33,961 nt of DNA, from the NCBI GenBank assembly GCA_001771535.1, contig MEUB01000038.1, positions 1 through 33,961 of the forward strand, in the 5' to 3' direction. This document shows positions 5,701-32,458 of this stretch, piece after piece. A program made the position numbers and the translations under genes. Source of the stretch: a candidate division WOR-1 bacterium RIFOXYB2_FULL_37_13. Its GTDB lineage: Bacteria > Margulisbacteria > WOR-1 > XYC2-FULL-46-14 > XYC2-FULL-37-10. The notes below the pieces were generated by a model that saw only the letters and a list, made by a program, of their open reading frames with translations, searched no databases and was not told where the DNA came from. Every line of letters begins with the position of its first letter. Position 1 is the stretch's first letter.

Positions 5701-6639
5701 TACATCCCCAATCTCCACAACCGAAGAGGAAAAGACTTTTTTGTTAATAAAGACAGAAGAAGAAGCATTTTGTTCACTATAAAGCCGTGTTGATAAATTG
5801 TTAACCTCAACCAGTCCTTTTGCAATTGTTATGATTGTTGATCCTACAATTCCGCTAATTTCATATAAATATTTGCCGTTTTTTACTATATTATGCAAAT
5901 CGGATGTTCCATCCCAGACAATATTGTACATTCCCGCCTTTTGCAAATTGTTTAAAGCTAAAGTTTTAATCAGGTTATTATTTTGATCAAAGATTTTGGC
6001 TGTTACAGCCGTATCCTGCGAAATCATGTAATATATTTGCGTAAAATCATTCACACCATCGCCATCAGGCGAAAAAGGATTGGGATAAGCGCCGGAAATG
6101 TCAATATTGGCAACTGAAGTATAAATTAAATCGGTTGTATAACTGCCTGGCTTATCCCTAAAATCAAGATTCACCTGATAATCAAAAATAAATCCTGCAG
6201 GAATTCCACTTGTTGGCGGCTGTAAAGCTACAAGCTGTTTTGGAGATAAGCTAACAGCTGTCCAATCCGCCTCTTTATTTGTTCCTGACTGTTTTATTTT
6301 TACCCGATTTATAGGAATTGTTTTTTTTGCGCCGGATGAGTTGTCAATTAAATCGCTATTTGCATTTACAGACAAATCCCAAGGAACATTGCTTGAAACA
6401 CAAATGCCTATTGCGGATTTTATTACATGCGGTTTTTTTGAAGGGATTATATTGTTTACGACCAACATTGGTTTTTCAGAAAAACCCTTTTCGTTTGGTG
6501 AAATGATGTCCAACAAAATAGAAGGGACAGAAAGATTATTTTCAAAAGGTTCCTGCGCAAAAGAAAATGAAACCGCAAAAATAAAAAAAATAGCGGCAAA
6601 AAACCAGAATTTACTTAACAAAAAAGACCGTGTTGGCAT
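2710..6639 (-). CDS. Giant outer-membrane barrel protein with subunit-like, FlgD-like, DUF11 and SdrD-B-like domains (usher-like candidate)
   Basis: 1309 residues from the ATG at 6639, chosen because a clear signal peptide (MPTRSFLLSKFWFF... to SFAQ) starts there and GGAAGAG lies about 11 bases upstream. The frame is open to 6708, so a longer start is possible. Approximate order: signal peptide 1-29; beta domain 35-180 containing CVSSNVPWDLSV and ending GSYTTDLIYTSV, which resembles the pilin-like subunits of this window; FlgD/CHU_C-type Ig domain 182-282 (AYPNPFSPDGDGVND); DUF11 295-422; SdrD B-like domain 430-520 (GKVFDDLNGNNIQDKGD); then about 770 residues of alternating strands ending in tyrosine, as expected for an outer-membrane barrel. 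The start overlaps the chaperone-like gene by 29 bases, so translation is probably coupled. A role as secretion pore or anchor for the neighbouring subunit is inferred. It might instead be a large adhesin. Confidence 0.8.
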   Translation of the reverse strand: MPTRSFLLSKFWFFAAIFFIFAVSFSFAQEPFENNLSVPSILLDIISPNEKGFSEKPMLVVNNIIPSKKPHVIKSAIGICVSSNVPWDLSVNANSDLIDNSSGAKKTIPINRVKIKQSGTNKEADWTAVSLSPKQLVALQPPTSGIPAGFIFDYQVNLDFRDKPGSYTTDLIYTSVANIDISGAYPNPFSPDGDGVNDFTQIYYMISQDTAVTAKIFDQNNNLIKTLALNNLQKAGMYNIVWDGTSDLHNIVKNGKYLYEISGIVGSTIITIAKGLVEVNNLSTRLYSEQNASSSVFINKKVFSSSVVEIGDVVTYGVTLENTGIGSLEEVKINDILPQGFKYVPGSTMMNNFSFDDPSGISNLSWNVGTIASGEGIELTYRALVGIGTPFGIAKNSASVTFQAEQGASSAGPVFATVNVKEGIFSKRGTIIGKVFDDLNGNNIQDKGDIGLPKIKIYTEDGTFVITDNNGAYSIPNVRAGNHLIMIDKKTIPINYGAVVSPSKILYLPEGGLTKGSFGISHSKLEELPILSEDEGFFFAALSEMQAGYLQTTGNMDNFTKAEGGEYISPFYTNGRAAFYLKGKVKGDWLLTSVVDTANNSDISFDNIDPDKSYYIYGDDSVLGKELRGLEKLYVRLEKDKNYILYGDVSPSLSDTEFTKYSRKLFGLRTYLDDGKNNMFDFFGAFSAQVAVRDELIPNDTAGPYYLSKAPLMEESETIIIETREKDYPNAVIKAVSMAKDTDYSINYDTGSIIFKKAITPENITGDKYYIVVLYEYKPQNGQNYYTYGLRGKTGHKDLISVGTTYISEDHLSGGYKLFGIDTSLKLGSNANFISEYADNLGSSESSCFYNQLTIKPIRHLKLNFYQYQAGLSFYNPTNAPSKGTDIKEYGINTEYKINEKSYLTADYKQWKNNISDDQNKGTTFHDSFSSLLKYDLWGLKYKTERESLDSFKSIDSIATSISLGLSPKIWIVGADINYAIEDETDFKNLSSSALTNRYDYKLAILSGVIRPFYEGGTERKNSKNSSALLKETNTNLIGIGFSFVEKLPFTATYKLQDSIDYATNTNEKYSTIGVDVSYGGSKNKKGAIKYNIKQALTGTAETHSTADVEIAYPIFCDLDFYGKSALAWDVDKQTGNIVSSLDNSWVSFAYRPVFFDSISLLFNASASGADNKLVTPQTSTKKNSTDFNIIYTPGNRWTISGRFAQKTNTDILSTQEVFSSADIISGRVSFNLVKQVFIAGEYRLLLENTSLDARRGAQLELGYAPVDGFQIVGGYNFIDFSCGADLSQNYQAKGCYLKLTGAYTLSDY

Positions 6640-8080
6640 TAGTAACTTTGTCTCTTCCATAAGAGATTGATGCCTCTGCTTTGTATAATCCCAAAGGAAG
6701 CTTGTCATCGCATGAAATTTTAACTTCTTTGCGAGTCTTTGGTTCTATATTATGATTAGGGATCAATAGTTCTTTAAATACCTTGTCTTCTTTTTTTATT
6801 TTAATTGTGCCACCAAACACAAGAGGGACATTTCCCTCATTTTCAAAATTAATGGAAAAGGCAACAGGCTGTCCACTTTTAACTATCTCTGCCGCAAATT
6901 TCACGATTTTTCCTTCTTTCACCACCGTCTGTTCAATTATTTCCAAATTACTCTCACTTACAACAGAAATAGGGTCTCCATAAACAATTTTTGCCAACGC
7001 TTTGTATTTGCCTATTATGATATCCTCTTCCAGTTCTCCTTTAACTTCTCCCGTGCCATAAGCATCAATCTTTATTGTATTTAAAGGGACAGAAGCAATC
7101 ATACCGCCAGCATCATTGTAAATTTCAACAACTCCGCCTGCATCAACTTTTGTATTGCCACAATTTCTCGCTGTTACAATAAAAGGAATTGGCTGTTTTT
7201 GTCTTATCTGCATGGAAGGAAACTTAATTATTTCAACTTTTTTAGCCTTTACATCATAAGCATCTAAAACAGAAAAAAGAGTTTCTCCTGAACTTAAAAT
7301 CTTTTTGTTGTCATTTGACGCTTCACACTTTACCGCATAGTCGCCTTTTGGCAAAACAGGCGGATCCCATATACCTTTCAGCCAATCTTCTTCCCCAGGA
7401 AGAATTGTCCCCCCTGACATATCCACCTTGCCAACCAAACCCCCGTTTTTATTATAAACAAAAGCTTTTCCTGAAACAGCAAGGTGGACATTGCCGTTAT
7501 TTTTAAAAAAGGCATAAATATCAACTGGTGAATTTTTGTCTTTTTGAACAACTTTTACTTTTGTTATTTTCCCTGACCAGTCCAACCCATGCGAAGAAAG
7601 AATTTTTGTTAATACGGCTACGCTGTTATTTTCTCCTTTTTGCCCCGAACCATATTCAAAAAACAAAGTAGCATAAAGCCCGCCTGTCCAGTCATAAGCA
7701 AGCGGTTTATTAAAAATAACTCGTACTTCACGGGCATCATCAGAGTTCAATAGGAAATTATTTGGTTCAATTTTTATGTATCTTACTCCACTGTAAATGC
7801 TTTCAGTCTTGTCATTAACAATATCCCCATTTGTTTGTTGGTTAGTTCCTGCTACGCGAATATTGACATTTATTGGGAAATTTCCGGTATTTGTTACAAC
7901 AACAGGCAAAGAAACATCCTCTTCATCCAAAATAAGCTCTATTTGGGCAGGGCTAATTTTCAACCCCGCCCAAACAATATTGGATAAAAAAGCCAAAAAA
8001 AACAAAACATACGCCGCATAAAAAGCTTTTCGGCTTTTCTGCCAACATAGATTGTAAAAAATGGATTTAAATAGTCTCAC
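6611..8080 (-). CDS. Periplasmic chaperone-like protein (DUF916/PapD-like), three beta domains
   Basis: 489 residues from a GTG at 8080; there is no ATG alternative before the signal peptide (hydrophobic about 20-37, ending VWA). The mature protein begins GLKISPAQIELIL, with NTGNFPINVNIRVAG and later FNKPLAYDWTGGLYATLFFEY, a pattern shared with the neighbour at 8092-9573 and the short protein at 14645-15127. This resembles PapD-type chaperone N-domains and DUF916. Two further Ig-like/CARDB-like domains follow, the last ending ASISYGRDKVTNANTVFFVK. The gene starts 11 bases after the preceding stop and overlaps the barrel gene, so it is part of a coupled operon. Binding and folding of secreted subunits is inferred; no function is proven by the sequence. 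It may be membrane-anchored if the signal is not cleaved. Confidence 0.7.
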   Translation of the reverse strand: MRLFKSIFYNLCWQKSRKAFYAAYVLFFLAFLSNIVWAGLKISPAQIELILDEEDVSLPVVVTNTGNFPINVNIRVAGTNQQTNGDIVNDKTESIYSGVRYIKIEPNNFLLNSDDAREVRVIFNKPLAYDWTGGLYATLFFEYGSGQKGENNSVAVLTKILSSHGLDWSGKITKVKVVQKDKNSPVDIYAFFKNNGNVHLAVSGKAFVYNKNGGLVGKVDMSGGTILPGEEDWLKGIWDPPVLPKGDYAVKCEASNDNKKILSSGETLFSVLDAYDVKAKKVEIIKFPSMQIRQKQPIPFIVTARNCGNTKVDAGGVVEIYNDAGGMIASVPLNTIKIDAYGTGEVKGELEEDIIIGKYKALAKIVYGDPISVVSESNLEIIEQTVVKEGKIVKFAAEIVKSGQPVAFSINFENEGNVPLVFGGTIKIKKEDKVFKELLIPNHNIEPKTRKEVKISCDDKLPLGLYKAEASISYGRDKVTNANTVFFVK

Positions 8081-8091
8081 TTTTTATGCCA

Positions 8092-9573
8092 TTACTTGCT
8101 TACAAAAAAGGATGTTTCTTTTGTTAAAACTTTTCCATCAGCATAAGAAATCATAGCATTTGCCTTATAAAGACCTGCCGGCAGATTGGCTTTCCAGCTA
8201 ATTGAAAAAACCTGTTCTTTTCCAGCCGCTATAACGGCTTGAGGAATAGCCATTTGCCCTGCTGTTGCTCCTGATCCTGTTTTTATTTCTATTATTCCTT
8301 CAGTGCTAAAAGGCACATTCCCTTGGTTTTTTATTGAAAACTTGGGGGATAAATTCCCTCCTGATTTTACTGAAGATATTGAAAATTCAGAGATAAGCCC
8401 CTTAATAATAGCAATTTTTTCAAGAACATCAAAATTAACATCAGCAAGCGCTTTTGTTTGTCCGCCATAGTCGACAGTCGCATTGGCAATATATCTCCCC
8501 ACAGGAAGACCCTCTTTATAGGTTCCTTTAAACGCGGTATTTTCGTTAGGAATCACAACACTCAAAGGCAACATTATTGTCCCAACTATCTTTTCATTTT
8601 CATCGACAAAATCAATTTTTGCCTCGGCATCTAAATTTATATTCCCGCTGTTATGAACAAGGAAATTAATGTCAAACGGTTGTTTTTTTGCCGCGACAGG
8701 CGCCCTAAAATTCAATATCTCTCCTCTTTTTACAGCAACTTCATTTTGAGCAATAACGGAAAACTTACCTGACGCAGAAGTCCCTTCTATTTCACTTTCA
8801 ATTGTATATTCTCCCGCAGAAAGAGAGGTTGTCTCCCAAATAGCTCTTAAATCTCTAACACCTCCAGGAAATATTTTTGCCGGTTCAACCGGAATATTTC
8901 CCAATAAATTTCCTGATGAATCTTTTATTTTGATAAAACCTGAAGGTAAAAAGTGAATATTTCCCGTATTTTCAACCGCGGAAAAAAATTCAATCGGAGC
9001 ATTAGCGCTTCTTTGAGCCACATAAACTTTATCAACTTTAGCGGTTTTAATTGTTTCTCCCGGTATTGTCATTTCGCTTATAATGCCTATTCTTGAAACA
9101 GCATCAACTCCGGCATTTCCTCCTGTTGACAAGTCGGACGACTTATCAACTTTTGATTCAAAAAATATTACAGCATAAAGACCGCCACCACTGTTCCCCT
9201 CTGGCTTATTAAATGTAGCCCTAACTATTTGTTCCTTTCCTCCTTCAACCGTAAACTCTTTTGGATTAAGTTCTATATTGGAAATACCAGAAAAAACTCC
9301 TCCGGTATTTGGCGCAAAATCAATTCCTCGCTCAAGAGTTTGAGTTAATCCCTCAACATAAATTTTTACTTGAACAGCAGTATCCCCCGTATTTTTAAAA
9401 GTTATAGGAATATCTTTACTGCTTTCAGTCAAAACAAGCTCAATTTTGGCAGGAGAAACGCCTATTCCGGCAAACGCTGTTCCAACTGCAAAGGTCAAAA
9501 AAGAAAAAACAAGGCTAACCATTAAGCAAACTGGCAAAAATTCATTCATTTTACTTTTTAATTTTATTAACAT
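8092..9573 (-). CDS. Periplasmic chaperone-like protein (DUF916/PapD-like), three beta domains
   Basis: 493 residues from the ATG at 9573, four bases after the subunit stop, with AAGGATGGTGAG just upstream. A TTG 33 bases further up is in frame but lies inside the subunit gene. The signal peptide ends near GTAFA. The mature N terminus GIGVSPAKIELVL, KNTGDTAVQVKIYVEGL and FNKPEGNSGGGLYAVIFFES match the same scaffold as the next gene. Domain 2 begins near residue 190, and the last domain ends SYADGKVLTKETSFFVSK, closely parallel to the neighbour. The two genes are probably an ancient tandem duplication. Placement directly after a subunit gene suggests a dedicated chaperone or scaffold; this is inference. 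Confidence 0.7.
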   Translation of the reverse strand: MLIKLKSKMNEFLPVCLMVSLVFSFLTFAVGTAFAGIGVSPAKIELVLTESSKDIPITFKNTGDTAVQVKIYVEGLTQTLERGIDFAPNTGGVFSGISNIELNPKEFTVEGGKEQIVRATFNKPEGNSGGGLYAVIFFESKVDKSSDLSTGGNAGVDAVSRIGIISEMTIPGETIKTAKVDKVYVAQRSANAPIEFFSAVENTGNIHFLPSGFIKIKDSSGNLLGNIPVEPAKIFPGGVRDLRAIWETTSLSAGEYTIESEIEGTSASGKFSVIAQNEVAVKRGEILNFRAPVAAKKQPFDINFLVHNSGNINLDAEAKIDFVDENEKIVGTIMLPLSVVIPNENTAFKGTYKEGLPVGRYIANATVDYGGQTKALADVNFDVLEKIAIIKGLISEFSISSVKSGGNLSPKFSIKNQGNVPFSTEGIIEIKTGSGATAGQMAIPQAVIAAGKEQVFSISWKANLPAGLYKANAMISYADGKVLTKETSFFVSK

Positions 9574-9577
9574 ACTC

Positions 9578-10084
9578 TCACCATCCTTGTACAACAGTAT
9601 AAACAATATTAATACGATACACGCGCCCTTGCGGCAATACAGGGTCAGAATATCTGACGGCTTGTTTGTATTTTACATATGTTGTTTCTCCGGGAGAAGG
9701 GATATTTGATACTACCACTTGCTCCATGGTAGAAATATTTGTATATAATGTATTGTCCTTTTCTTTAAACTGAAGGTTGTAATACAGCTTTTTTGGATTT
9801 GCTGTTACATAGCCAGTTCCGTCAAATTCCTGCATTCTTCCAGCCGCAACAGTATCACAATTTATCTTTATGCCATAGCTTTCGTTGCTATCTACAATAA
9901 CAGCCTGATTTGTTGAATAATTTGCTTCTCCAACTGTCATTGTCCAATTTAAATCAGCAGGGGTTGTAAGGATTAAATAAGGGCTAAATTGTACAATAAA
10001 ATGCTGTCCGCCATTACCAGCAAAACTAAATTCACAAAAAAAACATACCATACAAAAAATAGCGGATAATTTTACTTTAATCAA
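9578..10084 (-). CDS. Secreted pilin-like/WxL-like beta-sandwich subunit
   Basis: 168 residues from a TTG at 10084, which has GGAGG six bases upstream (10095-10091) and directly opens a signal peptide ending FSFAG. The mature protein shares a spaced pattern with the subunits at 14040 and 15218: LxTxP, a TVG segment, VxxSNxxYxIK, an M-x-x-F/Y-x-G-T-x-Y stretch, Q-x-V-x-Y-x-D, and a terminal strand (YRINIVYTVVQGW here, YHLVITYTAVQN there). Final strands of the form GxYxxxxxYTxV recall WxL domains and SCPU-type pilins. It is first in the coupled run subunit, chaperone-like, chaperone-like, barrel. Likely an exported structural subunit; polymerisation is not shown by the sequence. Confidence 0.7.
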   Translation of the reverse strand: MIKVKLSAIFCMVCFFCEFSFAGNGGQHFIVQFSPYLILTTPADLNWTMTVGEANYSTNQAVIVDSNESYGIKINCDTVAAGRMQEFDGTGYVTANPKKLYYNLQFKEKDNTLYTNISTMEQVVVSNIPSPGETTYVKYKQAVRYSDPVLPQGRVYRINIVYTVVQGW

Positions 10085-14039: not shown

Positions 14040-14540
14040 ATGAAAAAAATTTCACTTTTATTGGTGGCATTGCTTTTTGTCTTTGCTATATCAACAAGCA
14101 CTCTTGCTGATACCTCAAGTTCTGGAAACCAGGCAGTTGACACCAACCTTGTACCTGCTCTGGAAATGACCGCGCCAAGCGCTACTACTCTTTCCAACCT
14201 TACAGTTGGAACCAACAGCGATCTTGGACTTGGAAACTTAGTTGTTAGCAGTAATGCTCCTTATACTATTAAGTATCATGTTGATAAAACCCATATGACA
14301 AAGTATGCGGGCACAGACTATACTACCGCTACTGCGTTGATAAATGTCATGTCATTGATGGGTGGAGATGCCAGCTATGCAACTGTTTCAACGACCGATC
14401 AGAATTTAAAGACAGATTGCGGAGTTGAGAATGGAGCATCGTTCCCTATAGCTGCAAAGCAGGTAGTTGATTATGCAGATAAGGCTTTAGCTTCTGGGGT
14501 TTACCATTTAGTCATAACTTATACTGCTGTACAGAATTAG
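14040..14540 (+). CDS. Secreted pilin-like/WxL-like subunit, copy 1
   Basis: 166 residues from the ATG at 14040, preceded by AAAGGAGGTGA. A longer frame to 13995 overlaps the terminator and is unlikely. The signal peptide (MKKISLLLVALLFVFAISTS) ends near TLA. The mature protein has LEMTAPSATTL, VVSSNAPYTIKYHVD, MTKYAGTDY, QVVDYADKA and a final strand YHLVITYTAVQN. The same pattern appears in the subunits at 9578 and 15218 and, in part, in the N-terminal domain of the giant barrel protein. It is 167 residues in copy 2, with long identical blocks. A strong ribosome-binding site and a following hairpin suggest high expression. Structural role inferred. Confidence 0.75.
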   Translation: MKKISLLLVALLFVFAISTSTLADTSSSGNQAVDTNLVPALEMTAPSATTLSNLTVGTNSDLGLGNLVVSSNAPYTIKYHVDKTHMTKYAGTDYTTATALINVMSLMGGDASYATVSTTDQNLKTDCGVENGASFPIAAKQVVDYADKALASGVYHLVITYTAVQN

Positions 14541-14571
14541 TTAAGTATTGTTTTTGTTATCTGTTATTGGA

Positions 14572-14614
14572 GTATAGGTATACTTAGATTGGAGGTGTAC
14601 CTATACTTTTTTAT
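14572..14614 (+). terminator. Terminator/attenuator hairpin after subunit copy 1
   Basis: A 13-bp stem, AGTATAGGTATAC (14572-14584) with GTGTACCTATACT (14596-14608), includes one G-U pair, has an 11-base loop, and is followed by TTTTT. The same hairpin occurs after copy 2. It lies before the chaperone-like gene and could lower that gene's expression relative to the subunit. Confidence 0.7.
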
Positions 14615-14644
14615 AAAAAGTGTTAGAGAAGGAGGTGTAATAAA

Positions 14645-15127
14645 GTGAAATTAAATACCATTGGGAAATTCATCTTCCTTGGCGTATTTTTGATTGTCCT
14701 GCAAACTTTTGCCTCCGCAGGATTAAGAGTTATGCCAAGCACAGTTGATGTAAAATTCGGGAAGAAGCCTATTGCTGAAACTTTGATGTTGAAAAATACA
14801 GGTGGAGAATCGTTAATGATCAAAGCTTATGTAATGGGACTTGCAAAAAACAAAAAAGGAGACTGGGTGTTTACCGACCCTGTAACAAAAAATTATAATC
14901 TTAATAAGTATGTCACAATTTCCAGATCTTCGTTTGTTTTAAACGCAGATCAGGAATCAAAAGTAATTGTTAATGTAAAAAAACCCAAATATTATTCAGG
15001 CAAATTTCAATGTGTAGTCTTTTTTGAAAACTATCCTTTAGAAAAAACTGAAGTTGATACTTCAGCTCAAATGCAGACTTTAGTAGAAATACACGGCAGA
15101 CTTGGAGTAATTTTCAAGGAAAAGTAG
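14645..15127 (+). CDS. One-domain chaperone-like protein (PapD N-domain/DUF916-like)
   Basis: 160 residues from a GTG at 14645 with AAGGAGGT eight bases upstream. The signal peptide ends near FASA. The mature protein (GLRVMPSTVDVKF, LKNTGGESLMIKAYVMGLAK, then ISRSSFVLNADQESKVIVNV and CVVFFENYP) matches the first domain of the two large proteins at 6611-8080 and 8092-9573 but lacks their two further domains. Pro, NTG and FFE landmarks are conserved in all three. Its place between two subunit genes suggests a dedicated chaperone. The PapD-specific C-terminal domain is absent, so the mechanism would differ from classical donor-strand chaperones. Confidence 0.65.
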   Translation: MKLNTIGKFIFLGVFLIVLQTFASAGLRVMPSTVDVKFGKKPIAETLMLKNTGGESLMIKAYVMGLAKNKKGDWVFTDPVTKNYNLNKYVTISRSSFVLNADQESKVIVNVKKPKYYSGKFQCVVFFENYPLEKTEVDTSAQMQTLVEIHGRLGVIFKEK

Positions 15128-15148
15128 ATTTTATTTGGCGATCTAAAG

Positions 15149-15187
15149 ACGGGAGTAATAAAATGTTATTGTTATTCCCGTTTTTTT
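15149..15187 (+). terminator. Intrinsic terminator after the one-domain chaperone-like gene
   Basis: ACGGGAGTAATA (15149-15160) pairs with TGTTATTCCCGT (15170-15181), with two G-U pairs and a nine-base loop, followed by a run of T. Confidence 0.75.
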
Positions 15188-15217
15188 AGATGAATAAAAA
15201 GGAGGAGAATGAAACAA

Positions 15218-15721
15218 ATGAAAAAAACTTTAATTTTATTGGTAGCATTGTTTTTTGTCTTTGCTATATCAACAAGCACTCTTGCTGATACCTCAAGTTC
15301 TGGAAACCAGGCAGTTGATACAAACCTTGTACCTGCCCTAGAAATGACCGCTCCAAGTGCTACTACTCTTGATACTCTTCAGGTTGACGGCGATAATGAA
15401 TTTTTGCTTGGGAATCTAGTTGTCAGTAGCAATGCTCCTTATACCATTAAGTATCATGTTGATAAAACCCATATGACAAAGTATGCGGGCACAGACTATA
15501 CTACCGCTACTGCGTTGATAAATGTCATGTCATTGATTGGTGGGGATGTCGGAGATTTTGCAACCGTTGCTACAACCGATCAGAATTTAAAGACAAATTG
15601 TACAGTTGAAAATGGAGCTACATGGTCTATAAGCGGACATCAAGTAGTTGATTATGCTGATAAGGTATTGACTGATGGGGCTTACCATCTGGTTATTACC
15701 TATACAGCCGTGCAGAATTAG
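15218..15721 (+). CDS. Secreted pilin-like/WxL-like subunit, copy 2
   Basis: 167 residues from the ATG at 15218, which corresponds to the start of copy 1 (MKKTLILLVALFFVFAISTS). An ATG nine bases earlier is only three bases from the GGAGG and less likely. Long stretches are identical to copy 1, including a 92-bp exact block (15446-15537), whereas residues about 51-64, 108-117 and 125-140 differ strongly. The final strand YHLVITYTAVQN is unchanged. The duplicated unit includes the 3' hairpin. Probably an alternative or partner subunit of the same fibre; inferred. Confidence 0.75.
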   Translation: MKKTLILLVALFFVFAISTSTLADTSSSGNQAVDTNLVPALEMTAPSATTLDTLQVDGDNEFLLGNLVVSSNAPYTIKYHVDKTHMTKYAGTDYTTATALINVMSLIGGDVGDFATVATTDQNLKTNCTVENGATWSISGHQVVDYADKVLTDGAYHLVITYTAVQN

Positions 15722-15752
15722 TTGAGTCTTGTTTTTTGTTGTCTATTATTGG

Positions 15753-15795
15753 AGTATAGGTATACTTAGACTGGAGGTGTACCTATACTCTTTTA
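15753..15795 (+). terminator. Terminator hairpin after subunit copy 2
   Basis: The same 13-bp stem as at 14572 (15753-15765 with 15777-15789) with a loop differing by one base, followed by CTTTTAT. It is a weaker U tract than in copy 1. Confidence 0.65.
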
Positions 15796-15811
15796 TGAAT
15801 GATAAATGTTT

Positions 15812-15876: not shown

Positions 15877-16359
15877 ATGCTAAAGCCTTTGGTTCTTGTT
15901 GTTGATGATGAAGTAGACCTTAATAATGACATTGTAGAATCAATAAACAAATCAAATAAAAAATATGAAGCTATTAGCGCGTATTCTGCAGAAGAGGCTT
16001 TGTCCTCGCTTGAAAAGCATAAAGTATGTTTTGGCTTAGGAAGAAATTGCATACGATTTGTCGTCCTTGATATAAAGATGCCGGGGATGAACGGATTGGA
16101 ATTGCTTGAAACATTAAGAGAAAAATACAAAGAGAACATAGGGGTTGTCATGCTTACAGCATGGGAAGATAAAGAAAAATGGGACAAAGCTACCGCAGGG
16201 TTTGTTGTCAACTATCTTGTCAAACCTTTTGACCCTGCAAAACTCATTGAAATATTAGATCGTTTTTTTGAAGGTGAGGAAGAGCGAATGATCGTTGAAA
16301 CCTTTGAAAAACATATCGAAAAAGATAAGAAATACGAAAATCCTGCTTCATCTTCTTGA
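15877..16359 (+). CDS. Single-domain response regulator (receiver only)
   Basis: 160 residues. The receiver has acidic residues D10/D11 (VVDDE), phosphoacceptor D65 (VVLDIKMPGMNG), T94 (MLTAWED) and K116 (VKPFD). The domain ends near 132, and the remaining residues form a charged tail with no DNA-binding or enzymatic domain. An insertion before the phosphoacceptor strand (HKVCFGLGRNCIRF) is shared with the paralogue at 29787-30275, which also has the TAWED motif, so the two probably act in the same chemosensory/pilus pathway. It is the only plus-strand gene of that group and overlaps the convergent NAGPA gene by 12 bases at its 3' end. Confidence 0.85.
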   Translation: MLKPLVLVVDDEVDLNNDIVESINKSNKKYEAISAYSAEEALSSLEKHKVCFGLGRNCIRFVVLDIKMPGMNGLELLETLREKYKENIGVVMLTAWEDKEKWDKATAGFVVNYLVKPFDPAKLIEILDRFFEGEEERMIVETFEKHIEKDKKYENPASSS

Positions 16360-17898
16360 TTGAGGCTCAAACAAAATCGCGTTGCTTATTTTTCTTTGCG
16401 CGCCGCCTGAAGGAGTATTTTTTATTTTCCCGCGCACAACCATAGTGCTTGATCCCCCTCCGTCCAGATTTAAAGCGGACACAGCACCCAATGCTTTTAA
16501 AAAATAAGCCGCTTCTGTAAGAGACATTCCTATGCTATGACCCTCCCCCCTTTCCTTTTCTCTTTTTTTTCTTTTTAGTTTCCCATCAACTGTCACAAAC
16601 AATAAAGCTCCATCGTTTTTTATTCCGACTATTGTACGCGCCGCTCTCCCTCTTGCCACATCTGCCCTAAAGTTTTCCTCCTGTTTTGTAATATAAATTT
16701 CGCCATTTTTTATAAGCCTTGGTCCCCCACCGATAAGATGCAAAAACGATTCCGTCGTCGCGGAAACATTTAAAAAAGGTACTACATTAACAGCAACTTT
16801 CACTTTATCTTCTTTTTTTGCATTCAAAAATAAAAGCTCTGAAAGCTCCATTCCCGCAGATAAAACATACCCATTGGAAGGTATAAGCGAATTGCCGCAT
16901 TCAAAAGATACAACAACATCGTTTACAACAATAATATTAAAATCATCAGGTTCTGTATCAGTAACAACTCCATAGTAAGGAGTGTACAAAACGATATCTT
17001 TTTTTGGGGCCTTTTTTTCATTTATTCCCATTATTGGATATTTAGTAGCATTTATTTCAAAATAAGCATCCAGTGCGACATTGTCTATATAGGCTCTATG
17101 ATCGCTTGTTAAAATCAACGCAGTGCGGTCAAAAATCGGGCAGGAGATCACATTTTTGTTTATCATCAATATTCCAAGAGGCAAGCCGGATTTCAAAAAA
17201 TATGTTCCATTAATCCCTGCTATCGCATTATTTTGCAGGGCAATTCTTGAAGTTGTAGCAGGATAAAAACCGGATTGCTTTTCTTTTGTCCACGGATTAA
17301 AAAATTTCAACACCGAATAGATAAAAGCTCCTTCTGGCTCTCCTATAGCAGGAAAAACATCAATTTTTTTTGGGTCAACTTCAAGAACTTGGGCTAAAAC
17401 CAACTTATCGTCAACAGCTTTTGTAATATCATAATAATCCAACCCTTCGCAAATTTGTTCATTGTTTTTTACTTGTATAATCGTCCGTTCAAAATCAATA
17501 ATCAGCCTATCAGGAAGACTTAACGAGAAAATTTTATAAGCAAGACCATGTTTTAAGGGTACCCGTAATAAAAGACCACTTTCATAAGAAGTTATTTCAA
17601 TTTGTTTAACAGTAAAATCATTTATATCAAAACTATTTTGGATATTTTCTCCGTTCTTTACATTGAAAAGATAAATATCAATTTCGTTTTCCAATGATTC
17701 AACATTATAATAAGCTGTCCCGTCAAAATCGAGCGCGATCTTCAACCTATCAGGCTCGCTTAGGCGAATATTGTGTAAAATAGCAGAAGTTTCATATGTT
17801 AATTGTTTGCTCGATAAAACAGGAGCATCTGCTGTAGCCTTTAAAGTAAAAGAAAAACACATCAAACTCATTATAACGGTCAAAATACATTTGTTCAT
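16348..17898 (-). CDS. AMIN-domain phosphodiester glycosidase (NAGPA family)
   Basis: 516 residues with a signal peptide (ends near TADA). Residues about 30-135 resemble an AMIN domain (repeated LRVPLKHG, SLPDRLIIDF), which binds peptidoglycan. The C-terminal half is a NAGPA domain: AGINGTYF, RAARTIVGIKNDGALLFVTVDG, and ALNLDGGGSSTMVVRGK near the end, the characteristic LDGGGSS signature. Members cleave phosphodiester-linked sugars, and periplasmic cell-wall glycopolymer processing is likely. It is last in the pilus gene run, 42 bases after the secretin. The short secretin lacks an AMIN domain, so this protein could supply the peptidoglycan contact; that is inference. Confidence 0.85.
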   Translation of the reverse strand: MNKCILTVIMSLMCFSFTLKATADAPVLSSKQLTYETSAILHNIRLSEPDRLKIALDFDGTAYYNVESLENEIDIYLFNVKNGENIQNSFDINDFTVKQIEITSYESGLLLRVPLKHGLAYKIFSLSLPDRLIIDFERTIIQVKNNEQICEGLDYYDITKAVDDKLVLAQVLEVDPKKIDVFPAIGEPEGAFIYSVLKFFNPWTKEKQSGFYPATTSRIALQNNAIAGINGTYFLKSGLPLGILMINKNVISCPIFDRTALILTSDHRAYIDNVALDAYFEINATKYPIMGINEKKAPKKDIVLYTPYYGVVTDTEPDDFNIIVVNDVVVSFECGNSLIPSNGYVLSAGMELSELLFLNAKKEDKVKVAVNVVPFLNVSATTESFLHLIGGGPRLIKNGEIYITKQEENFRADVARGRAARTIVGIKNDGALLFVTVDGKLKRKKREKERGEGHSIGMSLTEAAYFLKALGAVSALNLDGGGSSTMVVRGKIKNTPSGGAQRKISNAILFEPQSRR

Positions 17899-17940
17899 TT
17901 CAAAATGATTAAAATTTAAAGCATTTTCATTTTTTGGCTT

Positions 17941-19059
17941 TTAATGAATTAGCTCCGAATTGTTTTCTTTTTCAAAAATCCGATTTTCCAAATTCTTTCC
18001 TCTTTGCGCCATTTCCTCTAAAAACGCTGGGGTTACAATATGAGGAGTAATAATTACCATAATTTCCCTTTTTTCCGATTGCAGTTGTGTCTGTCGAAAC
18101 AAAGTCCCCACAAATGGGATTTGAGATAAAAATGGAACGCCGTATTCAACTTGAGTCGTATAATTTTTGGTAAGTCCGCCAATAACAATTGACTGGCTAT
18201 CCTTCACCAAAACTTTACTGCTTGTTTGAGTCGTATTTTCTTGAGGAAGCCCATTCACCACGGTTCCTTCGCTAATAGCCGGATATATCTCCATAATAAT
18301 AAATCCGTCATCCGAAATGTGCGGTGTAAATTTGAGTTTTGTTCCAACCTCTAAAAAGTTTACTTCTTGAAGCGTGCCTGTCGTTGTTGTAAGCAAAGTT
18401 GTATATCCTATTTTTGAGCCTATTAAAATTTCTGATTCTTCATGGTTTAACGCCGAAACCCAAGGAGAAGCAATAAGATTATAGCCTATTTTATTGCTTA
18501 AAGTTTTAAGATAAGCCGAAATGTTGCCTGAAAAAATTTGAGCAAAAAAACCAAACGACGAAGCTCCGGTTACCCCCTGCGTAACTGTATTTGTAACAAT
18601 TTGTCTCGCATAATCGTTTGAATCCGAAGGATTTGTATATGTCCAATTCAGTCCTAATGTTTCCGGATTTGAAGAATCGCCGTTCCCTTTTTTAAATTCT
18701 ATGATTTTTGCTTCTACTTGAACTTGAAGAGGAGGAATATCAATTTGGCTTATAACTTTTGTTATGTTATCAATTGTTTTTGTGGAAGCCCTGACAGCAA
18801 TAGTGTTTAATTTTTCACTAACCGAAACCCCCTCCCCCTCTGCCAAAAGATCTTTTATCATATCGCTTATTTCTTTTGCTCTCGAAAATTTAAGATAAAA
18901 CTTTTGAATATAATATTCCGGTTTTTTGGGCTCCACTTTTGATGTAGAAGAGCCAACAGACGGCTCCGTTTCTTTAACCTTTAAAAACAAAGCAAAAGAA
19001 GAATTAGCAAAACACGCACAAATTGCGACCAATATAAACAGCAAAAAAAACTTTTTCAT
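17941..19059 (-). CDS. pilQ: Short secretin of type IV pilus/type II secretion (PilQ/GspD)
   Basis: 372 residues with signal peptide (MKKFFLLFILVAICACFANS). One N1-type KH-like domain (about 50-112: FYLKFSRAKEISDMIKDLL, EKLNTIAVRASTKTIDNI) precedes the secretin core (about 115-345), including VQVEAKIIEF, LIASPWVSALNHEESEILIG, SQSIVIGGL and VPFLSQIPFVGTLFR. Typical PilQ or GspD proteins are much longer and have AMIN or several N domains; here they are missing. It should form the outer-membrane channel for pilus or pseudopilus. A good AAAGGAG precedes the ATG. It sits between pilO and the NAGPA gene. Confidence 0.92.
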   Translation of the reverse strand: MKKFFLLFILVAICACFANSSFALFLKVKETEPSVGSSTSKVEPKKPEYYIQKFYLKFSRAKEISDMIKDLLAEGEGVSVSEKLNTIAVRASTKTIDNITKVISQIDIPPLQVQVEAKIIEFKKGNGDSSNPETLGLNWTYTNPSDSNDYARQIVTNTVTQGVTGASSFGFFAQIFSGNISAYLKTLSNKIGYNLIASPWVSALNHEESEILIGSKIGYTTLLTTTTGTLQEVNFLEVGTKLKFTPHISDDGFIIMEIYPAISEGTVVNGLPQENTTQTSSKVLVKDSQSIVIGGLTKNYTTQVEYGVPFLSQIPFVGTLFRQTQLQSEKREIMVIITPHIVTPAFLEEMAQRGKNLENRIFEKENNSELIH

Positions 19060-19077
19060 GCAAACGCAACTCCTTTT

Positions 19078-19563
19078 TTAGTTCAGGTATCCGCTAACCA
19101 GCTCCATGTCAACAACCAGCTCATCGTTTTCTTGCTCCGCTTTAACTTTGCTTATTATAAGAATGGTATCTATTTTTGCAAAATAATTTACAACATTTAA
19201 AAACTTTTGGTCTGTAGTCTTAAATTGCAAAGAAAAAACAAGCCTGTTGCCGTCTGATTCCTGATGCAGTAAAGACAAAGAAACACCGGCTTTATTAAAT
19301 GATGAGTTTAAAAAGTCAACTATTTTGCTTACTTGCTCTTCATAAGGCAATATTTGTAGTCCTCTCTTTGATAGAATATAAGCGGATGATACAGGGGGCT
19401 TTAATTGCTCAACTTCCATTTGCAGTTTTTTTATTTCCATATTCCCATTGTTTATTTTTAAAAAAACAGGTCCCATAAGCAAAATCCAGTAGGCAACAAA
19501 GAGTAAAAGCCCTATAGTCAGCAAAATAAGCTGTTTTTCCCGTTTTGACATATTGAAATTCAT
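19078..19563 (-). CDS. pilO: PilO/GspM-like inner-membrane assembly protein
   Basis: 161 residues. A short basic N terminus and one membrane segment (about 11-31) are followed by a coiled coil (INNGNMEIKKLQMEVEQLK) and a ferredoxin-like periplasmic domain ending VDMELVSGYLN. Size, topology and position directly after the pilM-pilN fusion and before the secretin match PilO. The ATG shares one base with the stop codon of the upstream gene, indicating translational coupling. No PilP gene follows, although one normally links PilO to the secretin. Confidence 0.8.
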   Translation of the reverse strand: MNFNMSKREKQLILLTIGLLLFVAYWILLMGPVFLKINNGNMEIKKLQMEVEQLKPPVSSAYILSKRGLQILPYEEQVSKIVDFLNSSFNKAGVSLSLLHQESDGNRLVFSLQFKTTDQKFLNVVNYFAKIDTILIISKVKAEQENDELVVDMELVSGYLN

Positions 19564-21143
19564 TATATTTTACCCTTTATTAAATCACAGGAAATATAAA
19601 AATCAAATATCGGCACATTAAATCTATCCGATTCTTCGATAGAAGATAATGTTATGGTTTTAAAGTAGCCGGTAGCTTTTAGTTTGTCCATAAAGTCAGA
19701 CACAGCAAACTTGCCGTCCCTTTTTTTTAAAGATATCCCTTTTATAATAAGTTTATTGGCAGAATTGTCATAATTTAAATATTTATAATAAACATCGGAA
19801 GGTGTAAGTTCCTTTAACAAGACCATAATTTTAAGATATCTGTCAATGCCTTCATAAACCGTCGCTTCTGCAAGCAAAGAAGCTAAAGCTTTTTCCTTTT
19901 CTATCGATTTTTGGACATCTATTCCCTGTTGTTTCATCTGTTCTTTGAGATTCAAAAGATATAAATTGGTTTTTATCTCCTTTTGGCAAAAAAAGAACCA
20001 CGCAAAAAACATTGAAATAAATATTACAGAAGCAATTCCCCATGTTGCAAAAATTTTTACGGCCTTTTTAAATAAGGGATTCCTTAATTCATAAGGCAAA
20101 AGACTCATATTTTCATCTTTTGACAAAGCAGCTCCCAAGGCCAAAGCCAAGGGATGCGCAGATTCTTCAAAATCTTTATTAACCTGCAAATTAAGAGGTA
20201 AAACTTCCACATCAAAGCCGAATTCATTTTTAAAAAACTCTATAAAGTTTTTTACCTTTGGAGCCAGTCCCGTAAAATAAGCTTTTTTAAATTCGGTATC
20301 ATCTTCCATTTCTTCACGGTAATATGCTATTGTCCTTAAAATTTCAGCGCCAATCTTTTCAAGCGGGGGCATCATCAGGGACATAATATCAGCGGCAGGA
20401 AGAGTTGACTTCTGTGCATATTCTTCATAATTCAGCGGTATGCCAAAATCAAAAAAAAGTTTACTCGCTTTTGTGCAATCAAGTTCAATTTTGCCAGATT
20501 CCGTCGCTATAGCCTGGGTCATAGCAGATACTATTGCATCTATCCCTATTTTGAATTCTCTTGCAAAAACAACTTCTTTGTTTTTTGTCAAAACAACAAC
20601 AGTTGCGCATTGTCCCAAATAAATCAAGACAGAAGGGTTTAAATCGATAGCACCGACAATATTCTTTAACGCCCATGAAGGAGGAATAATTTCGCAAGCG
20701 GAAAATCCCGCTTCTTTGGCATCTTGTGCAATTTTTTTAATGTATGACAAATCAGTCGCGACAACTAAAAAAAGTTGTTTCCCCGTTTTGGCGGAATTAT
20801 GGATTTTATAATAATCAAAAATAATTTCTTCTTTTTTGATAGACAGAGAATCTTCAAGTTTTAACCTTATCGCAGATATAACTTCATTTTGCGGCATGTT
20901 AGGCAGTTTTATGATTTTATAAATTAGTTCTGACCCTAGCAAAGTAATTTTTGCTTTTTTACAGTAAAATTTTTGCTTATTAAGAGGAGAAAAAAGTTCT
21001 TTTATCTGATGAGGCTCTAAGTTATTTGAAGAAAAACTGCTTAAAGCCCAATTTAATATTTTAGGCTCTTTGCTGGAAACATCAAGTTCTACAACATCCA
21101 TCGAACTTGACGATATTTGCACTCCAAGTGTTCTTTTTTTCAT
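19563..21143 (-). CDS. PilM-PilN fusion protein (GspL-like architecture)
   Basis: 526 residues from the ATG at 21143; a GTG nine bases upstream is an alternative, and neither has a clear ribosome-binding site. Residues 1-340 form the cytoplasmic actin-like PilM ATPase fold (LGVQISSSSMDVVEL, SAIRLKLEDSL, VLIYLGQCATVVVL, YFTGLAPKV, HPLALALGAAL). Then MSLLPYELRNP, the PilN-start motif normally bound by PilM in trans, continues without a break into a membrane helix (about 365-385) and a periplasmic PilN domain. GspL of type II secretion has the same order. The fusion fixes one-to-one stoichiometry in the inner-membrane platform. Confidence 0.88.
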   Translation of the reverse strand: MKKRTLGVQISSSSMDVVELDVSSKEPKILNWALSSFSSNNLEPHQIKELFSPLNKQKFYCKKAKITLLGSELIYKIIKLPNMPQNEVISAIRLKLEDSLSIKKEEIIFDYYKIHNSAKTGKQLFLVVATDLSYIKKIAQDAKEAGFSACEIIPPSWALKNIVGAIDLNPSVLIYLGQCATVVVLTKNKEVVFAREFKIGIDAIVSAMTQAIATESGKIELDCTKASKLFFDFGIPLNYEEYAQKSTLPAADIMSLMMPPLEKIGAEILRTIAYYREEMEDDTEFKKAYFTGLAPKVKNFIEFFKNEFGFDVEVLPLNLQVNKDFEESAHPLALALGAALSKDENMSLLPYELRNPLFKKAVKIFATWGIASVIFISMFFAWFFFCQKEIKTNLYLLNLKEQMKQQGIDVQKSIEKEKALASLLAEATVYEGIDRYLKIMVLLKELTPSDVYYKYLNYDNSANKLIIKGISLKKRDGKFAVSDFMDKLKATGYFKTITLSSIEESDRFNVPIFDFYISCDLIKGKI

Positions 21144-21174
21144 ATATGACACTTTTTTATTGTTTTACAGTCAA

Positions 21175-21203
21175 AGTTTACAATAGAATGAAACAAGTTG
21201 CAA
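21175..21203 (-). promoter_or_regulatory. Possible weak internal promoter before pilM-pilN
   Basis: In the 62-base gap after the PilX-like gene, TTGCAA (21203-21198) and TAAACT (21180-21175) are 17 bases apart on the minus strand. The -10 element is poor, so support is weak. Confidence 0.25.
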
Positions 21204-21214
21204 TTGATTTTTGG

Positions 21215-22648
21215 CTAATAAACTTCACGCCAATTACCAATATGCATTATTGAATTTCCTTCACCGGAAATTCCGGGAGCTAGGCTGATAAACTCTGTTC
21301 CACCGTAAATATCAGCCGCTTCTATTCTTGTTCCGTTAAAATCTCTGCCAATTAATGCTCCTTTAATATAAGATCCGGCATTCCACAATCTGGCATAAAT
21401 TCCCCAATTGCTGTCAGATAAAAACATCCCGGCTAGGTGCCCTCCGTACAAATATAACCGCCCCCTGCTTATCACACTCCCTTCAAAAGTAGCCAAATCA
21501 TTAAATGTTATATAATCATTGCTTGCTTGCGAGTAAATTACACTGCCACCTGTAATTGCAGGATTATTATTGATAGTTATTCTGCTTGTTGTCATAGACA
21601 GTATCTTTTTTGCTGTCGTGCTGTTGCTTTGAAAATAAGTATATCCGCCTTTATTATAAAAAATCACTCCAAAATCAACACTTGAGGCCCCTTCTTTTAT
21701 GTCAACAGCTGTCCCTCCAACATTAATATCTCCCAGAGCCCCGCTTGTCGCAAAAACAATGCTCCCCCCTTCAGGAGAAACAGTCGCATTGTCCTGTATT
21801 GTTATATTCCCTCTTGCCGCAATGATGGCAGAGCCTTTTACAACACAATTTTGCCCGATTGTAAAATTTCTACACTTTATAACCCCACCCACATTATACG
21901 AAGATGTGTTTAAGTTATATGGAGAATCAGCATTCCCTAAAGTTATGCTCAAATTACCGGAAGTAGGAAGTAGTGAATTGTAATAAGAGATTAAATTATC
22001 ATAATATGAATAATCTATATAAGGAAAACTAGGAAAACTGGATATCGCCTCCCAACTGCCAACGCTTGCTCCAGGCTCAATATAAACTTGAGGATAAGAT
22101 CGAGAAGCATCCGCATAAATTGTGCCGGCAACGGAAGAATCGCTTCTAACCCTTACCCTGCCTCTTGCCAAAACATCTCCTTGTATGCCTAAACTTAAAC
22201 CTAGCGCAAGCTGGGTATTTGTATTTCCCTGATTATCCCAAAAAACAGCATAATGAAAAGCCTCGGGAAAAGCATCCCCTTCTTTCGAGACATCGCATGA
22301 CACTGTTTTTATATACGCATAACCCTCTCTTGTTAATATTCCTGACGAATATAAAGTAAGTGAATTGTCAGCTTCGTTTGATATAGAAAGGACAAAAGTG
22401 CCACCACTAAAATTGCAAGATAAGGGAAATCCCATGTTTTGCGTCCAATTGGAATATCCTTCAATATGTTTTAATCCGTAAGCTCTGCCTGCTTCTGCAA
22501 TATAAAAAGATTTGTTGTAATAAATTTCTTTTACGGAGCTTTTTGATTCAGAAAAAATTATTGATGTTAAACTTACGGCTAAAATAGAAAAAACAAGCAT
22601 AATGAAAAGCACAGTCAAAAGGGCAAATCCTTTGCTTGATTTATTCAC
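21215..22648 (-). CDS. PilX/GspK-like minor pilin with large beta-helical-like C-terminal domain
   Basis: 477 residues. The N terminus (SSKGFALLTVLFIMLVFSIL) is a type III pilin signal and helix of the PilX_N kind, followed by SFYIAEAGRAYGLKHI, the typical continuation. From about residue 130 the protein is rich in short glycine/asparagine/valine repeats (LGLSLGIQGDVLARGRVRVR, NAVVKGSAIIAARG-type rungs) suggesting a beta-helix or bactofilin-like solenoid. It overlaps the preceding pilin gene by four bases (ATGA). Probably a tip or priming minor pilin; the C-terminal domain may be an adhesive head, by inference. Confidence 0.8.
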   Translation of the reverse strand: MNKSSKGFALLTVLFIMLVFSILAVSLTSIIFSESKSSVKEIYYNKSFYIAEAGRAYGLKHIEGYSNWTQNMGFPLSCNFSGGTFVLSISNEADNSLTLYSSGILTREGYAYIKTVSCDVSKEGDAFPEAFHYAVFWDNQGNTNTQLALGLSLGIQGDVLARGRVRVRSDSSVAGTIYADASRSYPQVYIEPGASVGSWEAISSFPSFPYIDYSYYDNLISYYNSLLPTSGNLSITLGNADSPYNLNTSSYNVGGVIKCRNFTIGQNCVVKGSAIIAARGNITIQDNATVSPEGGSIVFATSGALGDINVGGTAVDIKEGASSVDFGVIFYNKGGYTYFQSNSTTAKKILSMTTSRITINNNPAITGGSVIYSQASNDYITFNDLATFEGSVISRGRLYLYGGHLAGMFLSDSNWGIYARLWNAGSYIKGALIGRDFNGTRIEAADIYGGTEFISLAPGISGEGNSIMHIGNWREVY

Positions 22649-23127
22649 CTGTTTCTAATCCCCGCGCCGGAGCTCAACCTTACAACATTTTTGCCGTCTT
22701 GAACAACAAGGTTAAATTGCACAACATTTATATTAGATTCTATTGTAGCAACATTCCCACTTCCATCCAAATAAGTAAAGTGCAATCCATCAGGAGAAGC
22801 AATCCCTGAAAGCAAAATCGAGCCGTTTCTTTCCAGATTCGCTCCGTTTCTTTTGTATTCAATCATATTATCGTCTATGTCAACAAATTTAAAATCACCT
22901 GGCGTAAAAGTTATTATGTTTGACGATGAATTGCTTTTTACTCTGCGAATTTCTTTTGTCATTCTTATTAAAACCCCTTTAACCTCTTGCATAAGCTTTT
23001 TTTGCCCCCGTAAAAACCCCCAAGAATCTATCCCTGTTGTAATAACCACAAATAGCATGCTTGAAATAACTCCAGCTATTGTTATTGCAATTATTGTTTC
23101 AATTAAAGTAAATCCGTTTTTTTTCAT
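22645..23127 (-). CDS. PilW/GspJ-like minor pilin
   Basis: 160 residues. It begins MKKNGFTLIETIIAITIAG: a prepilin peptidase site (G before FTLIE), the conserved Glu at position 5 and a hydrophobic helix. The globular part contains EIRRVKSNSS and the YKRNGANLERNGS hairpin typical of PilW/GspJ proteins. It starts two bases after the upstream pilin gene and overlaps the PilX-like gene by four bases. Confidence 0.85.
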   Translation of the reverse strand: MKKNGFTLIETIIAITIAGVISSMLFVVITTGIDSWGFLRGQKKLMQEVKGVLIRMTKEIRRVKSNSSSNIITFTPGDFKFVDIDDNMIEYKRNGANLERNGSILLSGIASPDGLHFTYLDGSGNVATIESNINVVQFNLVVQDGKNVVRLSSGAGIRNR

Positions 23128-23129
23128 AT

Positions 23130-23519
23130 CTAATTTGATGCGTCTGAAACCAAGGTAGAAACCTCAAGCGAACCCAAGCTGTAAGAACTGACAAAAACTT
23201 TAATCCATTTATAACTGGTTGGAGTTAAAGAAACTTCTTCAATTTCTTGTGAAGCCACATAGGCTGCCTGTACACTATAGTTATAGTCCGAAAAATCTCC
23301 CAAAAAAGAAGTTAAAGATTCAGATGTTATACTATTAAAATTTCTGTTCGATATTTCTTCGAGCTTTGCAGAAGCAAGGTATAATGAGGTGGATACAGCT
23401 TCAAGCTTTGGGTTTTTAAAATTAATATTGATAAAAATATTCAAAACTGATAAAACAACAATTCCAAGTATCACCACAGCCATTATAAGTTCAATCAATG
23501 TAAACCCATTTTTTTTCAT
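23130..23519 (-). CDS. PilV/GspI-like minor pilin
   Basis: 129 residues from the ATG at 23519. A longer frame adds 16 residues with no pilin sense and overlaps the upstream gene. The chosen ATG overlaps the upstream stop (ATGA). The protein starts MKKNGFTLIELIMAVVILGI, with the type III signal and Glu5. Later, LASAKLEEISNRNFNSI matches the conserved region of PilV/GspI proteins (AxxxxEExxN). One of four successive pilin-like genes. Confidence 0.85.
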   Translation of the reverse strand: MKKNGFTLIELIMAVVILGIVVLSVLNIFININFKNPKLEAVSTSLYLASAKLEEISNRNFNSITSESLTSFLGDFSDYNYSVQAAYVASQEIEEVSLTPTSYKWIKVFVSSYSLGSLEVSTLVSDASN

Positions 23520-24010
23520 TGTATCGTCACAGCTCCGCTTGTGGGAGAAATCGTTACAACCACACAATTGCCCCCTTTTAACAAAGAAACAAATCCATTT
23601 GAACTGATAGGAACGCCTGTTTTATCTGAAAAGGGAACTCCGTAAGGGTCAAATTCAACTTTATTGCCAGAAGCTATATTAACACTGCTAATTGAAACAT
23701 CATCATAATTATCTGAAATATTTATTATAAAATCTTCGCCTTCTCTTTCAGGATTGCTAATAGGAATATCGTTGACCCCATCTGTTTCGTATACAGTGTA
23801 AGTATTGCCGGAAAAAACCGCGCCATGCCATTTTGAACTTGCTAAGGCAAGATTTCTTGCATATCTTAAATCAGAAGAAAGTTTTTCCGCCGCCGCCATT
23901 AAATAATGACATTTGTAAGACGAAATTGCGACAAAAGCAGAAGCAGAAACTATCCCTAAAAGAACAATAACCATCACAAGCTCAATTAATGTAAACCCGC
24001 CTTTTCTCAC
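23516..24010 (-). CDS. FimT/GspH-like minor pilin
   Basis: 164 residues. It begins MRKGGFTLIELVMVIVLLGI, with prepilin cleavage site and Glu5. The stretch MAAAEKLSSDLRYARNLALASS is the FimT/GspH signature, and VEFDPYGVPFS recurs in the C-terminal domain of this family. First of the four pilin-like genes, 23 bases after pilC. No long glycine-rich major pilin is seen, so it is more likely minor. Confidence 0.88.
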   Translation of the reverse strand: MRKGGFTLIELVMVIVLLGIVSASAFVAISSYKCHYLMAAAEKLSSDLRYARNLALASSKWHGAVFSGNTYTVYETDGVNDIPISNPEREGEDFIINISDNYDDVSISSVNIASGNKVEFDPYGVPFSDKTGVPISSNGFVSLLKGGNCVVVTISPTSGAVTIQ

Positions 24011-24033
24011 AAAAACCGCCTTCTATTGCAAAC

Positions 24034-26740: not shown

Positions 26741-26744
26741 GATT

Positions 26745-27116: not shown

Positions 27117-27140
27117 TATTTGTTAGCTCCTTTTTATTTT

Positions 27141-28184: not shown

Positions 28185-28185
28185 A

Positions 28186-29769: not shown

Positions 29770-29786
29770 GGAAATCCTCCCTAACT

Positions 29787-30275: not shown

Positions 30276-30300
30276 TTAATTTGCACCTCCCAAAATCATA

Positions 30301-30315
30301 CCGCGCTTTACGCGG
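30301..30315 (-). other. Small hairpin over the cheA stop codon
   Basis: CCGCG-TTTAC-like arms (5-bp GC-rich stem, five-base loop) include the cheA stop codon. No U tract follows, so this is not an intrinsic terminator. It may affect re-initiation at the next gene. Confidence 0.3.
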
Positions 30316-32422: not shown

Positions 32423-32458
32423 TTTTCTCCCCAATAAGCTTATAAATAATAAAAAAGA

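Follow-up and report, generated by a model that had tools for sequence, protein, structure and literature searches.

Segmental gene conversion as the probable source of silent-site mosaicism in a pair of secreted-subunit genes from a Margulisbacteria genome

How do two genes that have diverged strongly at silent sites come to share 92 consecutive identical bases, and should a mosaic of this kind be read as a sign of antigenic variation? This question is raised by positions 14040-15721 of the window, the 33,961-nucleotide stretch of DNA analyzed here (contig MEUB01000038.1 of assembly GCA_001771535.1, candidate division WOR-1 bacterium RIFOXYB2_FULL_37_13). The assembly, in which the window is contig C38, comprises 1.79 Mb in 71 contigs and is 96.7% complete. 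An initial annotation of this DNA described tandem subunit genes whose identical and diverged patches were taken to fit gene conversion with antigenic-type diversification. The features on which the question turns are the following:

14040-14540, plus strand: subunit gene A, 166 aa
14074-14140, plus strand: second identical block, copy A, 67 bp (end of the signal peptide and N-terminus)
14268-14359, plus strand: 92-bp identical block, copy A (putative conversion tract)
14564-14617, plus strand: 3' hairpin with a T-rich tail downstream of gene A, -20.5 kcal/mol
14645-15127, plus strand: gene for a single-Ig-domain PapD-like chaperone, between A and B, 160 aa
15218-15721, plus strand: subunit gene B, 167 aa, 81% identity to gene A
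15252-15318, plus strand: second identical block, copy B, 67 bp
15446-15537, plus strand: 92-bp identical block, copy B
15746-15799, plus strand: 3' hairpin downstream of gene B, -23.2 kcal/mol

The product of gene A fits the subunit profile of the phylum (a profile that includes gene A), has a signal peptide by inspection and ends in ...YHLVITYTAVQN. The frame of gene B could start at either 15209 or 15218, of which 15218 is the counterpart of the gene A start. The two proteins differ by 31 substitutions and one single-codon gap (166 versus 167 aa), and most of the amino acid changes fall in alignment residues 52-63 and 107-155. Both end in ITYTAVQN; many relatives from the phylum end in FTLTE, FTMTE or FTLTQ. 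The genes are indeed tandem, as had been annotated, but they are not adjacent, with the chaperone-like gene intervening. A search of the genome found two close subunit copies, A and B, both intact; a third match, with an E value of 0.029 and within a 2651-aa frame on contig C12, was taken as chance. A promoter scan upstream of A and B found no clear promoter common to both.

Comparison of the subunits with Pfam (16 members), NCBIfam and PDB sequences produced no credible family match, and we took as chance both the interleukin-18 matches among PDB sequences (E 0.08 or worse) and the NAD kinase matches in the NCBIfam search. The predicted subunit model is all-beta and of low confidence (pLDDT 55.8). 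A fold search with it gave no match at E <= 0.001, and a fold comparison gave Z scores up to 6.8, a level that the tool rates as uninformative. Rank 2 in that comparison is the fimbrial protein BPSL1626 (Z 6.5, rmsd 3.6, 112 residues aligned), which ties with unrelated beta proteins.

No base differs between positions 14268-14359 and 15446-15537, 92 bases each, as the initial annotation reported, and the match is maximal, since it cannot be extended on either side. The observation is slightly richer than first described in that it includes the second, 67-bp block and the hairpins. The two 3' hairpins are 93% identical over 67 bp, with 3 differences in 54 columns; given that a near-identical hairpin follows each subunit gene, the duplicated unit takes in the hairpin. 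The other ten genome matches listed for the hairpin region are all short (at most 38 bp), and neither hairpin was reported by a terminator scan. When the A/B alignment is segmented with a two-state model whose rates were set by hand, three sharp conserved islands emerge, the main borders of which are unchanged at the four switch rates tried, and the model beats a single rate by about 9 log units with switch costs included. Island 1 (14074-14140) contains 0 differences in 67 columns. Island 2 (14253-14359), which extends the 92-bp block, contains 1 difference in 107 columns, and island 3 (14564-14617, ending at 14607 at the highest switch rate) contains 3 in 54. Outside the three islands the copies differ by 25-30%, gaps counted. 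The flanks of the block had been said to differ heavily in both length and sequence; for length this statement is wrong, the only gap between the copies being one of a single codon. The DQNLKT region, which had been named as a divergent flank, sits in an identical run of 21 bp (14394-14414).

The initial annotation had proposed a window-by-window comparison of synonymous sites as a check, and we carried it out by pairwise Nei-Gojobori counting. The 92-bp block has a dS of 0 over 19.3 synonymous sites, a zero that rests on about 19 such sites. Outside the block, dS is 0.670 and dN is 0.148, a dN/dS ratio of about 0.22, and dS is greater than 1 in several windows. With Met and Trp excluded, 131 codons specify the same amino acid in both genes; 30 of these differ, and silent-identical codons form a run of at most 29, with a second-longest run of 23. 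In 100,000 shuffles of the silent codons, the longest run has p = 0.0056, a value that is moderate on its own, and the two longest runs summed have p = 0.00012. When nucleotide differences are shuffled within codon positions, a run of 92 bases is reached in 0 of 20,000 trials, so that the identity of the block is beyond chance by shuffling. Silent codons differ at 0 of 29 positions in the block run versus 30 of 102 elsewhere (Fisher p = 0.00027, for a block picked post hoc). Thus, in some segments the silent divergence of the paralogues is far below that of the segments next to them, which is the pattern expected of intragenomic gene conversion.

Constraint at the nucleotide level, whether from RNA structure, an overlapping signal or codon preference, might preserve such blocks without any recombination. 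The signal peptide and the hairpin coincide with islands 1 and 3, where constraint may help, and this coincidence is a point against the conversion reading. The 92-bp block folds at -16.9 compared with -14.1 (sd 3.0) for mononucleotide shuffles, a difference in the direction of constraint that nevertheless lies within 1 sd of the shuffles. Independent draws from the codon bias would yield 28 of 28 identical block codons with a probability of about 1e-10, which is an overstatement because the diverged parts are unsaturated (codons for the same amino acid agree in 19 of 31 and 27 of 43 cases, versus 11.4 and 20.5 expected at saturation), while the figure assumes independence. From the codon-draw and folding tests we reject the idea that the identity stems from codon bias or RNA structure alone. 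Silent conservation is also unclustered in all 17 of the between-genome pairs described below, and we regard nucleotide-level constraint as a very improbable explanation of the mosaic.

Relatives of the two genes were found with a chaperone profile (4 rows, from the window's own genome and genome G012) and a subunit profile (16 rows), and one subunit screen relied on the C-terminal pattern only. The chaperone profile has matches in 19 of 74 phylum genomes and the subunit profile in 18 of 74, the own genome included in both counts and the 16 rows of the subunit profile matching by construction. The subunits are a fast-evolving family, located beside PapD-like chaperones in 18-19 of the 74 genomes. 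The profile searches covered 31 genomes from the class of the window, among which only the own genome and G012 match, and within the same family or order no genome besides the own one has a profile match. A search for close relatives matched 1 of 115 genomes, the window's own, and a separate genome-contig search found none. The phosphodiester glycosidase gene that neighbors the locus is present in all four regions compared from neighboring lineages, one of which is cut off by the end of its contig. A tblastn search of these regions at E 1e-4 detected neither subunit nor chaperone genes, and there is thus no syntenic outgroup. This phosphodiester-glycosidase-like gene (16348-17898, named by inspection) has a 53%-identical paralogue elsewhere in the own genome (G000:C33:36852-38351). 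Unlike the fast-evolving subunits, it has relatives in all 8 of the other genomes searched for it.

The 30 loci listed from these relatives supplied 17 valid between-genome control pairs of at least 60% identity, drawn from 13 genomes and not independent of one another. None of the 17 shows silent clustering (run p 0.20-0.99), and their longest exact DNA matches are 10 to 61 bp. The six closest of these pairs have 94-98% protein identity and 19-36 silent differences in 168-175 codons; despite this lower fraction of silent differences than in A/B (30/131), their silent runs reach just 11-24 codons versus 29 in A/B. Twelve within-genome pairs of matched stretches from eight other genomes, with the partners on different contigs in two of the pairs, show 20-37% identity, and their exact matches are 9-11 bp long. 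Two or three adjoining subunits are present in several relatives, and among those compared a near-identical, patchy pair occurs only here.

Because the silent identity of A and B is patchy, unlike that of the 17 between-genome pairs, and because codon bias alone is insufficient, the mosaic is best explained by segmental gene conversion between A and B, which we consider probable. The two copies, between which the small PapD-like chaperone gene lies, would descend from an old tandem duplication whose repeat unit, the gene for a secreted beta-rich subunit, included the 3' hairpin. Strong silent-site divergence of the copies would have come first. Later, short segments would have been copied between them by homologous recombination, which would have restored identity in 14268-14359 and 14074-14140 at least, while the remainder stayed diverged. 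We infer from the pattern that recombination took place inside the organism's own genome; either copy may have been the donor, and RecA-type machinery presumably took part.

The main rival to conversion reverses this polarity. According to it, the duplication is recent, the islands are its unaltered backbone, and recombination with alleles of other strains or species brought in the diverged patches. Import into a young duplicate would yield the same pattern as conversion; the patches hold silent and amino acid differences alike, island 3 lies outside the coding sequence, and the GC content of the patches (0.41-0.46) is above that of the window (0.36) and the block (0.37), all of which suit this account. 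However, patch GC is similar in copies A and B (0.46/0.44 and 0.43/0.41), and high GC is also a feature of the 5' stretch (0.44/0.40). A separate import would be needed for each of the three diverged segments, and no donor sequence is known. Import of diverged patches therefore seems to us unlikely, though it deserves more weight than the other alternatives considered here.

The mosaic could also have been made by the assembler, if bubble-popping or graph collapse had turned near-identical segments into identical ones. The genome is in 71 contigs and probably comes from a metagenome assembly, and 92 bp is close to common k-mer lengths. Collapse of this kind would erase the few mismatches between near-identical paths, and the contrast between block and flanks would persist, which makes an assembly artefact an improbable source of the pattern.

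Gene conversion thus stands as the favored reading of the patchy silent identity, and the second half of the initial proposal, diversification of the antigenic type, fares differently. In an antigenic-variation system, conversion would sustain a variable surface protein whose exposed loops are under diversifying selection. The subunits are secreted and most of their amino acid changes are grouped (residues 52-63 and 107-155), as such a system would have it. The most changed twenty-codon window (from 14184) has a dN of 0.43, yet even there dS is higher, at 1.28, so that no excess of amino acid over silent change was found in the variable parts, and dN/dS outside the block is about 0.22. There are just two close copies, both intact, and no silent donor cassettes were found in the 96.7%-complete genome, which holds only these two and one distant copy; at that completeness an absent further copy is conceivable. 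Neisseria pilin, by comparison, draws on as many as 19 silent pilS copies, according to an excerpt of PMC4534519. The lack of silent copies is inconclusive by itself because, in the same excerpt, the Opa (about 11 copies) and Ehrlichia antigen families are built of intact copies (PMC4534519). With neither a donor reservoir nor diversifying selection in evidence, we reject antigenic variation as exceedingly improbable. Conversion here would be an ordinary process, a role in immune evasion is not supported, and mosaics like this one should not be taken for antigenic variation.

A second assembly-like locus occupies 2710-10084 on the minus strand of the window, comprising a distant subunit, two chaperone-like proteins and a protein of 1332 aa:

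9578-10084, minus strand: third, distant subunit gene, 27-30% identity to A and B
8092-9606, minus strand: multi-domain chaperone-like protein, 504 aa
6611-8080, minus strand: multi-domain chaperone-like protein, 489 aa
2710-6708, minus strand: large secreted protein, candidate outer-membrane partner of the second locus, 1332 aa; DUF11, FlgD_ig, SdrD_B (below cut-off)

The protein encoded at 14645-15127 has 24-26% identity to the products of 8092-9606 and 6611-8080. It is not a tandem-Ig (two-domain) chaperone, for its 160 aa align solely with the N-terminal part of its relatives; this single-domain result covers the 14645-15127 protein only, its relatives elsewhere having 258-267 aa. Its predicted model is of low confidence (pLDDT 57.9). 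The best Foldseek match of the model is to CsuC at E 0.010, and the top VIA-align match is the PapD-like domain of CEP192 (Z 6.5). By title, 28 of the 50 VIA-align matches listed are pilus chaperones, all with Z of 6.3 or less, the best being CupB2 (Z 6.3, rmsd 3.1, 81 residues aligned). A search of the PDB with the chaperone profile returned only EcpB (E 0.98), and the NCBIfam LpfB model matches at E 7.6e-4, far under its cut-off.

No usher-type gene lies beside 14040-15721. The 2710-6708 protein matches no Pfam usher model at E up to 1, in a type of search that a very distant usher could escape. Nor is there a match, at E up to 0.5, for the large proteins that follow the chaperone in genomes G045 and G037. 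Both of those genomes carry a pair of subunits with a 258-aa chaperone-like protein immediately after it; next comes the large protein, 854 or 775 aa long, which has SdrD_B domains and a match below cut-off to the pilus-formation N-terminal domain (E 0.13 and 0.0032). In G012, three subunits precede the chaperone. Only the SdrD_B region of the 2710-6708 protein aligns with the large G045 protein (E 1e-5). Among the loci of relatives, L173 (1991-7057), L174 (2095-6875) and L013 (3825-7090) repeat one gene order, in which a secreted protein bearing a D.FE..N motif is accompanied by two or three subunits together with a PapD-like chaperone; the motif protein of L173 has no Pfam match. In L173 and L174 a large SdrD_B protein follows, with a pilus-formation-like N-terminus and no recognized usher. 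This recurring operon of subunit, chaperone and large protein has no name in any library searched. We tentatively suggest, at somewhat less than even confidence, that some Margulisiibacteriota have a fimbria-like secretion system of their own. It would combine a PapD-like chaperone with between one and three beta-rich subunits that evolve rapidly. Instead of a recognizable usher, it would have a large outer-membrane protein with a possible barrel, a pilus-formation-like N-terminus and SdrD_B/carboxypeptidase-regulatory domains. The pair described here would be a case in which the subunits were duplicated and partly homogenized by gene conversion.

Other parts of the window hold unrelated features. 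An IS-like element of 1040 bp (1392-2431) has perfect 25-bp terminal inverted repeats (1392-1416 and 2407-2431), an 8-bp flanking duplication, TTCATTGG, at 1384-1391 and 2432-2439, and a transposase-like frame at 1415-1969 (by inspection), and it is present in a single copy in the assembly. Positions 15877-32932 carry what we take to be type IV pilus/type II secretion-like genes (secretin, PilM/PilO-like, prepilins, PilC, PilB) and an adjoining, presumably chemosensory, cluster (methyl-accepting protein, CheA-like, CheB-like, CheW-like, response regulators). The window's PilB-like ATPase has its closest named matches, at 62-63% identity, in two Candidatus Margulisiibacteriota MAGs, the next match being at 48%, which probably places the organism in that phylum.

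Among known systems, the archaic and alternative chaperone-usher pili (Csu, ECP, CFA/I), as described in an excerpt of PMC4654587, resemble this locus in placing small secreted beta-rich subunits beside an Ig-like chaperone, and the chaperone-like protein has weak fold matches to CsuC, EcpB and CfaA. The listed fold matches of the chaperone model, most of them PapD-like, support, short of proof, a reading in which the subunits may form a fimbria-like fiber with the help of the chaperone. Unlike in those pili, the large protein has no Pfam usher match and the chaperone is of single-domain length, the others in the window having 489-504 aa. The locus is not classed as chaperone-usher because no usher was recognized and its chaperone has one domain; in the titles and abstract beginnings searched, we found no paper on this locus or on pilus chaperones in Margulisbacteria. 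The WxL/WxL-interacting protein pairs of Gram-positive bacteria offer a second likeness, since the chaperone-like protein weakly matches WxLIP (9i1y) and its G045 relative matches PF06030 at E 0.056; unlike in WxL pairs, none of the 16 subunits matches a WxL family of Pfam at E up to 1. Neisseria pilE/pilS resembles A/B in its patchy exchange within a secreted subunit, but the pilS copies are silent and promoterless, according to the excerpt of PMC4534519, and here none were found, nor was diversifying selection seen. A further likeness is that to Salmonella tufA/tufB, likewise two paralogues in one chromosome, for which the excerpted text of PMC5485169 describes conversion as established, with continuous transferred tracts that mismatch repair shortens. 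The tuf copies differ at 12 nucleotides (PMC5485169), whereas A and B are strongly diverged at silent sites elsewhere and their conversion is deduced from that contrast. The mosaic is thus a new example of a known process, an apparent conversion between duplicated secreted-subunit genes seen at silent-site resolution in a little-studied phylum.
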